Shown: positions 27,164 through 30,130 of the stretch, piece after piece
How positions within the stretch are numbered: position 1 is the stretch's first letter
Layout: each line of letters starts with the position of its first letter
Source: Myxococcales bacterium
GTDB taxonomy: Bacteria > Myxococcota_A > Polyangia > Polyangiales > Houyiibacteriaceae
Direction: 5' to 3'
DNA length: 41,339 bases
Assembly (NCBI GenBank): GCA_024640845.1
Contig: JAHEEE010000033.1
Coordinates: 1-41,339 of the forward strand
Notes under the pieces: generated by a model
The model's database searches: none
The model's input: the letters and a program-made list of their open reading frames with translations, nothing else
Told to the model about the DNA's origin: nothing
Translations under genes and position numbers: made by a program

Positions 27164-28015
27164 TTACCCCACTGACAGTCGTTTGCTGAAGAATAACTTG
27201 GAAACCGGGAAGGCGAGCGCGAACACGACGAACATGCAGAGCGCCACTGTGATGAGCACGCGGGGATCATCCCGGAAGTTTGCCGTCGCGACGGTTGCAG
27301 CTGCGCCGATGTTTCGTGCTGTCGTGATGAGACCGAGCGTCACGCGGCCCCTCATCTTACCCGGACCGAGGAGGTAGCCGATCGCGAAAGCAACGATCGT
27401 GAGCAAGATGGCATATGCGACCGCCCCGGTTCGAGCCGTCGCAGCAAGCTCGTCCCAGTGCAGGACCAGCGCCAGCACAAGAAAGATGAGCGCGGAGAGG
27501 TTGACCAGGATGTTGGCCGGCCGTCGCAGCTTCGTGGCAGCCGATTCGCTTGTGTGGCGGATGAGCAGCCCAGCAAGCAGCGGCACAAACATCTGAAGGA
27601 GTAGGGGCTTGGCGATCTCCCAGATGCCGATTGCGCTCCCAGGGACCAGAAGAGGGAGCACGAAAGGCATCAGCGCGATGGTGAGCACCGTGAGCAACAT
27701 CGTCGCCGCGATCGAGCTCGGGACGTCGCCGCCCGCGACGTTGACCAGCTTCGGGGTGTACGGGGCGCCGGCCGAGAAGCCATAGAGCAGCACACCGATC
27801 ATGAACGGCCGCTCGAGTGGGTAGAGGATACTCGCGCCATACACCAGGAGAGGCACGATCACGAGGTTCGCGAGCAGCGTGCGGGTGACGAGCCCAAGGT
27901 TCCTCATCGGTTCCAGCGCTTGCTGAAAGGTAACCTCGAGCCCCGCGGTGAAGAGGACCCCGGCGATGAAAACGGCGATAGCGACGTTCAATACGACTTC
28001 GAGAGCCTCGAGCAC
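27164..28015 (-). CDS. Bile acid:sodium symporter (BASS) family transporter
   Basis: The 283-residue protein has about nine or ten hydrophobic helices and the BASS pattern: an N-terminal GLEVTF segment, Ser/Ala/Gly-Ala-Pro in the crossover helix (GFSAGAPYTPKLVNVAGGD), and TTARNIGAA near the C-terminus. These proteins are sodium-coupled importers of bile acids, pantoate, 2-keto acids or other organic anions; the substrate here is unknown. The start is GTG at 28015. It is followed on the same strand by the DUF1254 lipoprotein gene, and divergent from the ABC exporter operon across a palindrome cluster. Confidence 0.85.
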   Translation of the reverse strand: MLEALEVVLNVAIAVFIAGVLFTAGLEVTFQQALEPMRNLGLVTRTLLANLVIVPLLVYGASILYPLERPFMIGVLLYGFSAGAPYTPKLVNVAGGDVPSSIAATMLLTVLTIALMPFVLPLLVPGSAIGIWEIAKPLLLQMFVPLLAGLLIRHTSESAATKLRRPANILVNLSALIFLVLALVLHWDELAATARTGAVAYAILLTIVAFAIGYLLGPGKMRGRVTLGLITTARNIGAAATVATANFRDDPRVLITVALCMFVVFALAFPVSKLFFSKRLSVG

Positions 28016-28054
28016 GAGCGAAGGGGTACACCATTTCCGAGTCCCAGCGCCAGT

Positions 28055-28177
28055 GCGGAGCCCCGTGGTGACGAAGTCACTCTACGGGGTCAGCCCGTAA
28101 AACCGATGCGTCGCATCGCCCACGGGCCTTCGGCGTCAGCGCGGAGCCCCGTGGTGACGAAGTCACTCTACGGGGTC
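28055..28177. repeat. Cluster of three palindromes with an exact 37-bp direct repeat
   Basis: A 37-bp unit occurs identically at 28055-28091 and 28141-28177. Each unit folds as CCCCGT-g-GTGAC-gaa-GTCAC-tct-ACGGGG. Between them is a third palindrome, GCCCGT (28093-28098) with ACGGGC (28122-28127), enclosing the perfect dyad CGATGCG-t-CGCATCG (28104-28118). The set fills most of the 199-bp gap between two divergent genes, which is unusual for a terminator. It resembles a REP/BIME-type cluster. Confidence 0.85.
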
Positions 28178-28214
28178 GGTGCCGGTGTTAGTGATCTGGT
28201 ATGCTCACGCCCCG

Positions 28215-29189
28215 ATGGCGGCAGTCCAACTTCAGAGAGTGCTCTTGGCTGCTTGCGTCTTGGCGCTGACCGGCTGTCGCGCCGACCGCAGTACGCCTCC
28301 TGGCTATCAAGGGATCGTCGAGCACGACGACCGACATTTGGGGTTCCGAGTCGGCGGGCAGCTTCGCGAGATCCGATACGATCGCGGAGACGTCATCGAC
28401 GAAGGTGCGCTGATCGCGGTCCTGGACGACACGGCCGAACTTCCCATCTTGCTGGCCCGCGAAGCAGACCTCGCGCAGATCCGAGCGAACGCAGCCTTGG
28501 TCTACGCAGGGCCGCGCGAAGAGGAGGTCCGCTCGACGATGGCTGAGCTTGCGGGCGCGCGCGCGTCACTGAGAGAAGCCCGCGCCAACCTCGACCGTCA
28601 TTTGAACCTCCCAGAACAGGCGGCGACGGCCCAATCTCGGGTGGCCGAGCTCGAAGCGGCGTACGCGCAGTCGAAGGCTCAGTTTCGGATGCTGCAAGAG
28701 CGCCTCAAGCAGCTACGAAAAGGGGCAAGGCCGGAGGAGCTCGCGGCGGCTGACGCAGCGGTCCTAGCGGCCGAAGCCGCAGTCGACGCCGAGAAAGAGA
28801 AGCTCGCTCTCTACTCTCTTCACGCCTCGGAGCGCGTAACCGTTCTCGACGTGCCCGTACGCGTCGGCGAGGTGGTCGCCGCAGGCGCAACCGTGGCAAC
28901 GGTCGCCGACACCAAACATCCATACGTGGATGTATTCGTTCCCCAGCAATCTCTCCATGGGCTCGAGGTAGGGGTCGCGGCGCAGGTTCGAGTCGATTCG
29001 GAGAGAGACGCCTTCGAGGGCCAGATCGAGCACGTCGCGCCGACCACCGAGTTTACGCCGCGCTTCCTCTTCTCGCCGCAAGAGCGCCCGAACCTCGTGG
29101 TTCGCGTCCGGGTTCGCATCAGTGATCCCGACGAGCGTTTGCCGGCTGGCGTGCCAGCGTTTGCGACGTTCGCGATCGAGGACGAGTAG
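28215..29189 (+). CDS. HlyD-type membrane fusion lipoprotein of an ABC exporter
   Basis: A 324-residue periplasmic adaptor. A lipobox (LTGC, Cys19) replaces the usual TM anchor. A lipoyl half-motif (FRVGGQLREIRYDRGDVIDEG) precedes a long coiled-coil hairpin (residues about 90-190) and a beta-barrel end. The C-terminal pattern PTTEFTPRFLFSPQER resembles YbhG-like adaptors. It would bridge the ABC permease to an outer-membrane channel, which is not encoded nearby. ATG at 28215 starts at the signal peptide. Only 2 bp separate it from the ATPase gene. Confidence 0.88.
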   Translation: MAAVQLQRVLLAACVLALTGCRADRSTPPGYQGIVEHDDRHLGFRVGGQLREIRYDRGDVIDEGALIAVLDDTAELPILLAREADLAQIRANAALVYAGPREEEVRSTMAELAGARASLREARANLDRHLNLPEQAATAQSRVAELEAAYAQSKAQFRMLQERLKQLRKGARPEELAAADAAVLAAEAAVDAEKEKLALYSLHASERVTVLDVPVRVGEVVAAGATVATVADTKHPYVDVFVPQQSLHGLEVGVAAQVRVDSERDAFEGQIEHVAPTTEFTPRFLFSPQERPNLVVRVRVRISDPDERLPAGVPAFATFAIEDE

Positions 29190-29191
29190 GG

Positions 29192-30130
29192 GTGAGTGAT
29201 CCGGTCGTCGTGGAGGGGCTCTCGCGGAGCTTTGGCACGCTCGTCGCCGTGAGCGATGTCAGCTTTCGTGTTCACCGTGGCGAGATCTTCGGGCTGCTAG
29301 GGCCCAACGGCGCAGGGAAGTCGACTACATTGCGCATGCTTTGTGGCATCCTGGACCCCAGTGCGGGTCGCGCGACGGTCGTCGGTTTCGACGTCGCGAA
29401 GGAACCGGAGCGGGTGAAGCAGAACATTGGCTACATGACCCAACGGTTTAGCCTCTACGAAGACCTCAGCGTCGAGGAGAACCTCAATTTCTACGCCGGC
29501 GTCTACGGGCTCCGCCGTCGCGAACGGCGTGCGCGCATCCCCGCCGAGCTCGAAAGGGCGGGGCTGACCGACCGCCGTGACCAGATTGCGGGCACCCTTT
29601 CGGGCGGTTGGAAGCAGCGCCTCGCGCTCGTCTGCGCCACGATTCACGAGCCGCCGCTTCTCTTTCTCGACGAACCGACGGCCGGCGTCGATCCGGTGAG
29701 CCGTCGCGAGTTCTGGGCGCACATTCACCGTATCGCGTCGGCAGGAACGACGGTGATCGTCACGACCCACTACATGGACGAAGCCGAGCGTTGTCACCGG
29801 CTCGCGTTCATCTTTCGCGGCAGCCTCCTCGACATTGGAACCCCGACAGAGATCATCAAACGCCGCAACATCAGGGTTGCGGTCATCACGACTTCGAACG
29901 TTGGCAGAGCCGTGGACCTGCTGACCCCGTACCCGTCCGTCGACGAAGTCGCGCCGTTTGGCGACCGCCTTCGAGTCGCGACGCTCGATGCGGTAGACCC
30001 GATCGCGCTCGCACGGGAGGTGCTCGGCCAAAGTCCGGGTGTGCTCGATGCGCGCGAGATCGTTCCCAACGTCGAAGACGCATTCGTCGCCATGGTACAC
30101 AGCGAAGCTCGCGCCGGAGCCGGTTCATGA
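29192..30130 (+). CDS. ABC-2 type exporter ATP-binding protein
   Basis: A 312-residue ATPase with all core motifs: Walker A GPNGAGKST, Q-loop in GYMTQRFSLYEDLSVEENL, signature LSGGWKQRLAL, Walker B LLFLDEPTAGVDP and the H-loop in TTHYMDEAERC. The DrrA/YbhF-like C-terminal extension is present, with no fused second ATPase domain. It powers the adjacent ABC-2 permease. The start is GTG at 29192; its stop overlaps the permease ATG in ATGA. Confidence 0.93.
   Translation: MSDPVVVEGLSRSFGTLVAVSDVSFRVHRGEIFGLLGPNGAGKSTTLRMLCGILDPSAGRATVVGFDVAKEPERVKQNIGYMTQRFSLYEDLSVEENLNFYAGVYGLRRRERRARIPAELERAGLTDRRDQIAGTLSGGWKQRLALVCATIHEPPLLFLDEPTAGVDPVSRREFWAHIHRIASAGTTVIVTTHYMDEAERCHRLAFIFRGSLLDIGTPTEIIKRRNIRVAVITTSNVGRAVDLLTPYPSVDEVAPFGDRLRVATLDAVDPIALAREVLGQSPGVLDAREIVPNVEDAFVAMVHSEARAGAGS

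Follow-up and report, generated by a model that had tools for sequence, protein, structure and literature searches.

The spacer between two divergently oriented genes in the genome of an uncultured myxobacterium contains a hairpin-forming sequence in two identical copies, and the locus raises the question of whether these are operators shared by both genes or members of a dispersed repeat family. The DNA analyzed, referred to here as the window, is the whole 41,339-nucleotide stretch of its contig. A preliminary description of the window had named an operator, a REP-type element, and a DNA-binding-protein site affecting both genes as candidates. The arrangement is probably a REP/BIME-type (REPIN-like) repeat that was inserted between the two genes, perhaps in a stretch of hexamers.

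Hairpins in the divergent spacer

The spacer lies between two divergent gene starts, as first described. On the minus strand is a transporter of the BASS/SBF (sodium/bile-acid symporter) family (27164..28015, start at 28015; Pfam PF01758, E 2.1e-18). On the plus strand is an HlyD-family adaptor (28215..29189; PF13437, E 7.2e-15) with an ATG start at 28215 and an alternative GTG at 28179. The next gene after the adaptor encodes an ABC ATPase (29192-30130; PF00005, E 7.8e-33).

The exactly duplicated sequence is 37 nucleotides long and was located by a repeat finder at 28055-28091 and 28141-28177. These copies are enclosed in 45-nucleotide copies (28047-28091 and 28133-28177) that are 96% alike. 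Each 37-nucleotide copy contains a hairpin, here termed hairpin A. The first A copy (28057..28091, plus strand) was identified by the repeat finder, by DNA folding, and by a match to R1, the covariance model built for A (63.6 bits, E 8.3e-11). The second (28143..28177, plus strand) was identified by the repeat finder and an R1 match. Hairpin A has a GGAG head and an outer stem of CCCCGT paired with ACGGGG; its 3' side carries a 2-nucleotide bulge, and its inner stem ends in a GAA loop.

A further palindrome, hairpin B (28091..28131, minus strand), lies between the two copies of A. It matches R2, the covariance model built for B, with 68.3 bits and an E value of 1.2e-16 in the genome and 1.1e-18 in the window. 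When read on the minus strand, B shares the plan of A. It has a GAAG head, an outer stem of GCCCGT paired with ACGGGC, a larger internal loop, and an inner stem of CGATGC paired with GCATCG. The B model also matches both window copies of A, each with an E value of 1.7e-4, and A and B are therefore taken as homologous. On this sequence likeness all three hairpins are assigned to one family, with B as the inverted homologue of A. The third palindrome noticed earlier is thus real, and its sequence, first described as different, is that of a diverged, inverted relative of the outer two. Hairpin B and the second copy of A form a head-to-head dimer in which 11 nucleotides separate the two model matches.

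DNA folding of the three single hairpins gave z values of −2.29, −2.73, and −2.20; of 200 shuffles of each, 6, 4, and 4 equaled or bettered the hairpin. The 134-nucleotide whole gave a z value of −3.64, and none of 200 shuffles folded as well. Sequence, repeat finder, and folding agree on a 37-bp hairpin-forming unit in exact duplicate. Short motifs beside both gene starts appear, by eye, to be conserved. We infer, only by eye, that the hairpins are placed between two core promoters, since a scan of 27950-28300 found no promoter-like consensus sites.

Copies in the genome and the genus

A genome-wide count of the unit had been proposed as a check, with many intergenic copies to be read in favor of a REP element over a specific operator. 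The genome searched comprises 4.14 Mb in 145 contigs and is 95.6% complete. A DNA similarity search, in which 40 of 52 candidates were scored, placed the unit at 33 positions, including that of the window. The covariance models gave 39 A (R1) and 31 B (R2) matches at E ≤ 0.1, which overlap at a few places and so are not to be summed. By the measure of the preliminary description itself, these numbers favor REP.

Each model has matches in all 19 genomes of the genus, from 1 to 39 for A and from 3 to 47 for B. The DNA search found matches in 18 of the 19 genus genomes and in none of 18 genomes outside it. Among 96 genomes of the order, searched with stricter filters that lose weak matches, R2 at E ≤ 1e-5 matched 14, all of them genus members, and none of the 82 outside the genus. 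An exact-pattern scan of the genome_contigs collection, which holds one genome per species for 84,980 species and may omit records near the window's own, returned 33 stretches in 11 assemblies. All 11 are titled MAG, and all are named Myxococcales or Deltaproteobacteria except for one "uncultured bacterium". Among the genomes searched, the family is matched only in this uncultured myxobacterial genus. Open-license literature on REP, RAYT, REPIN, and BIME, on myxobacteria, on hexanucleotide repeats, and on the 23S rRNA intervening-sequence protein (IVP) contained no description of the family among the matches listed. The tens of model matches per genome compare with hundreds for GTAG REPs and REPINs; this copy number is low for REPs and counts against the REP reading.

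Copies were usually found in pairs. Among the matches listed for R1 and R2 (about 150 for each model), where G003 has no row, 18 genomes hold 56 close pairs (≤400 nucleotides), of which 43 are head-to-head, 8 tail-to-tail, and 5 direct. The gaps between heads in these matches are mostly 5, 8, 10, or 11 nucleotides, so that inverted pairing with a characteristic spacing, the mark of REPINs, is present in the family. Usually the homologous bulged hairpins A and B together form one head-to-head dimer; the extra A in the window turns this unit into A-B-A. At another locus of the same genome (L010), three B-A dimers stand in tandem.

None of 30 clusters in the window's own genome lies inside a gene called by a home-made codon-usage gene caller. 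The clusters fall in tandem (14), convergent (10), and divergent (4) gaps, with 2 at contig edges. The family thus consists of palindromic hairpins within the 20-40 nucleotide range at many dispersed extragenic sites, as is typical of REPs and BIMEs. The position of the window's copies between divergent genes had been called unusual for such elements, a point that carries little weight here. In sampled stretches plus the window, gaps of 30 to 1,500 bp number 39 tandem, 17 convergent, and 18 divergent, and their lengths sum to 9,541, 6,240, and 2,293 bp, respectively. With 4 of 28 classifiable clusters in divergent gaps, against 18 of 74 gaps and 2,293 of 18,074 bp, divergent placement is not rare per base.

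The A copies were aligned in 40 rows (32 distinct), drawn from 44 copies after omission of two in L013 that adjoin Ns and of shifted ones in L027 and L029. The B alignment includes all 30 copies (26 distinct). Paired cells make up 96.6% of A and 95.2% of B. Double-changed cells number 13 in A, where shuffles average 4.6, and 10 in B, where they average 2.3; none of 500 shuffles was as high in either case, in a test that is inflated by related rows. Double-changed pairs were not above shuffles in A (2 against 1.4, reached by 189 of 500) or in B (2 against 1.6, reached by 289 of 500). The clearest switch is at one inner pair of A, which is T-A in 25 of 28 rows from the window's genome and C-G in 10 of 12 rows from relatives. 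Judged by the double-changed cells and the score, both above all shuffles, and by this switch, the stem has been kept by compensatory changes, as in REPs and BIMEs.

REPIN doublets have been reported to be more alike than singlets (PMC3116915). In the window's genome, A copies in dimers had a likeness of 0.945 (n = 17) and singlets 0.874 (n = 11), with p of 0.013-0.015 as first grouped, where the singlets took in two direct-repeated copies (L028) and two that are 128 nucleotides apart (L032). After these four loosely paired copies were omitted or regrouped, p was 0.061 or 0.16; the difference is not robust. Copies of A are as alike among relatives (0.912) as in the window's genome (0.916), for which reason the likeness is weak evidence of homogenization within the genome.

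The corresponding locus was compared in ten relatives that have close BASS orthologues (68-80% identity). At none of these ten loci does the A or the B model match. The HlyD gene neighbors the BASS gene as in the window in four of them (G002, G004, G005, and G013), and the flank searched in the other six contains no HlyD match. No clean empty site was aligned, which also counts against the REP reading.

An operator or regulatory palindrome governing both divergent genes would fit the placement between the two starts, the exact duplication of A, and the symmetry of the sites. It is nevertheless very unlikely and, like a specific protein site for the two genes, is not supported, because copies adjoin many other genes and the transporter loci of ten relatives lack the hairpin, four of them with the divergent pair retained. 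The changes among copies also follow a covarying stem-loop, and a double-stranded operator partly tolerates such changes but does not need them. The same covariation, together with the position of a number of copies only bases away from the end of a gene, could point to an element that acts at the RNA level and was amplified for that role, such as an mRNA stabilizer, a terminator, or an attenuator hairpin. This explanation is improbable, in that 27950-28300 holds no terminator-like site, a covariance-model search of 27900-28400 against Rfam gave no match up to E 10, copies also occur in divergent spacers, and dispersed dimers restricted to one genus resemble a mobile repeat. The REP-type option of the preliminary description is the one that the data support, with dispersed, extragenic, genus-wide copies of bulged, covarying hairpins that mostly stand in head-to-head pairs. 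What appeared to be a tidy duplicated operator turns out to be a dispersed repeat, and the REP/BIME class gains a myxobacterial example.

Known REP classes and Y1 transposases

The family resembles GTAG REPs, BIMEs, and REPINs in its imperfect palindromes of about 29-35 nucleotides, which have a bulge as well as a short head and loop (PMC3116915, PMC2817692, PMC8266576, PMC3733652). It also resembles them in its dispersed extragenic copies, which are mostly inverted dimers with short spacers and include some tandem clusters. REPINs are REPs paired in inverted orientation (PMC3116915), and the pairing of A with B is like that of enterobacterial REP dimers made of two related but non-identical hairpins. 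The REP transposase of E. coli depends on a bulge that a conserved mismatch forms (PMC8266576).

The head, which is GGAG or GAAG and varies among relatives, sets the family apart from GTAG REPs, and no repeat-flanked Y1 gene was present among the loci searched. With a search pattern that favored purine heads and allowed mismatches, GTAG was the head in none of 40 A rows and none of 30 B rows, the commonest being GGAG (21) and GAAG (23). One A copy from the window's genome, left outside the alignment owing to neighboring Ns, reads GTAG. The CGTC head is likewise absent from the head tetranucleotides of the 70 rows. The opposite end of the hairpin, beside the stem, reads GTCA (B) or CTGA (A) by eye in most copies of the window's genome. 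The family is like the CGTC REPs (PMC3733652) in being made of short palindromes, chiefly in head-to-head dimers, without an adjoining dedicated transposase. It is unlike them in its outer stems, which start with C/G rather than A-T, and in its loop, bulge, and head.

A search for a REP-associated (RAYT) transposase gene, also proposed at the outset, detected a single Y1 gene in the window's genome, and neither hairpin flanks it. This gene (L035, 1462-2112) encodes 216 amino acids and matches Y1_Tnp with an E value of 1.7e-11; its REP_Tyr_transpos score of 55.4 bits is below the curated cut-off of 80. It sits between GGGGACAG and CTGTCCCC (L035, 1363-2182). Of 16 Y1 loci of the genus that were checked, 3 carry this pair of sequences (L035, L060, and L071). 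The two sequences resemble the GGGGWSAS motif in the terminal repeats of TIRYT, which are RAYT-like genes with long terminal repeats (PMC3733652). The motifs of the protein, NHVH and YIDLNP, place it by eye near TnpA-Y1 subclass 2.1, which has YIELNP and is described in PMC6006769 as not REP-flanked. Because the sequences that flank the gene have no relation to either hairpin, it is at most a candidate mobilizer.

Neither hairpin was found beside the Y1 genes at 30 loci, where the best E values were 0.71 and 1.3. The genus contributes 17 of these loci, out of 20 Y1 matches listed for it. A RAYT gene flanked by the repeat, as in a REPtron, is thus lacking at these 30 loci, which come from mostly incomplete assemblies. 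In six of the 19 genus genomes that hold hairpins (G002, G006, G009, G014, G016, and G018), PF01797 finds nothing at E ≤ 0.001. A cognate gene may have been missed, since the assemblies are mostly incomplete; this is less likely in G016 and G018, which are listed with 100% completeness. The number of Y1 genes did not correlate with hairpin density (0.28, p 0.24). Because head and transposase neighbor were tested and differ from those of the named classes, the family is assigned neither to the GTAG or CGTC REPs nor to the REPtrons.

The most likely account, drawn by analogy with other REPs, is a hairpin element in DNA that is itself passive and is copied in trans. The family would be a small, non-autonomous DNA element that spread by way of a single-stranded hairpin intermediate, in which the head, bulge, and stems would be recognized. 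The mobilizer would most likely be a Y1/RAYT-type transposase that acts in trans or has since been lost. One copy of the element would have inserted between the transporter and HlyD genes, perhaps into a hexamer stretch. Any effect on the flanking genes, through the spacing of upstream regions or local structure, would then be incidental and would involve no dedicated operator. If a cognate RAYT should also be absent from closed genomes, the family would be a test case for the spread of REPs without a dedicated transposase, for example the CGTC class.

Hexamer stretches and IVP genes

Possible remnants of a hexamer stretch border the hairpins on both sides. The left one, AGCGCCAGTGC (28046..28056, plus strand), abuts the first hairpin and is by eye a candidate (CAGYGN)n remnant. 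The right one, GGTGCCGGTGTTAGT (28178..28192, plus strand), appears hexamer-like when compared by eye with relatives. No part of the window was called as an array by a tandem-repeat finder. By eye, longer runs of CAGYGN hexamers lie beside the BASS start in G006, G013, G014, and G015.

Arrays of this kind allow another explanation, in which the hairpins are not mobile and are passengers copied along with (CAGYGN)n arrays as these slip and recombine with one another. In the window's genome a 16-nucleotide hexamer motif is matched 164 times, and its reversed control once. By a strict test, arrays stand beside 8 of 31 clusters in this genome, against 15 of 4,486 control positions, and beside 6 of 50 clusters in relatives, against 63 of 8,789. 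Hexamer arrays are thus enriched beside clusters, yet most clusters fail the strict test (23 of 31 and 44 of 50, respectively). The lack of a strict array at these clusters, and the recurrence of head-to-head dimers and covarying stems across the genus, make the passenger explanation unlikely. A tentative variant of the REPIN-like reading, itself rather doubtful, is a genus-wide family that has no RAYT of its own and is moved by another factor, either a trans-acting Y1 transposase of the type with long terminal repeats or an enzyme of another kind. Such a family would prefer (CAGYGN)n arrays, which also host 23S-IVP-like genes.

The window's genome has eight genes for IVP (PF05635) at five loci (L114 to L118) on contigs C6, C102, C57, C93, and C105, with convergent pairs at three of the five. 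A long inverted repeat precedes most of the IVP starts, and hexamer arrays lie outside it. Hairpin A or B is present at 4 of the 5 loci, where 0.25 is expected by chance, and at 4 of 28 IVP loci in relatives, where at most 0.6 is expected; IVP genes and hairpins are therefore found together more than by chance. This association may reflect shared residence in hexamer arrays. IVP was rejected as the mobilizer. The number of IVP genes is uncorrelated with hairpin density (Spearman −0.06, p 0.80), and G003, G004, G009, and G018 hold hairpins without an IVP match at E ≤ 0.001.

Long arrays of AGCGYC hexamers are also present in the window's genome, for example at C29:148122-148275. By eye, a second dispersed repeat contains GGCGTCGGGAGG followed by at least about 150 bp of shared sequence and is in tandem at some loci. 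It occurs at L009, L010, L016, L017, L020, L024, and L025, where it adjoins the hairpins or lies no more than about 1 kb away.
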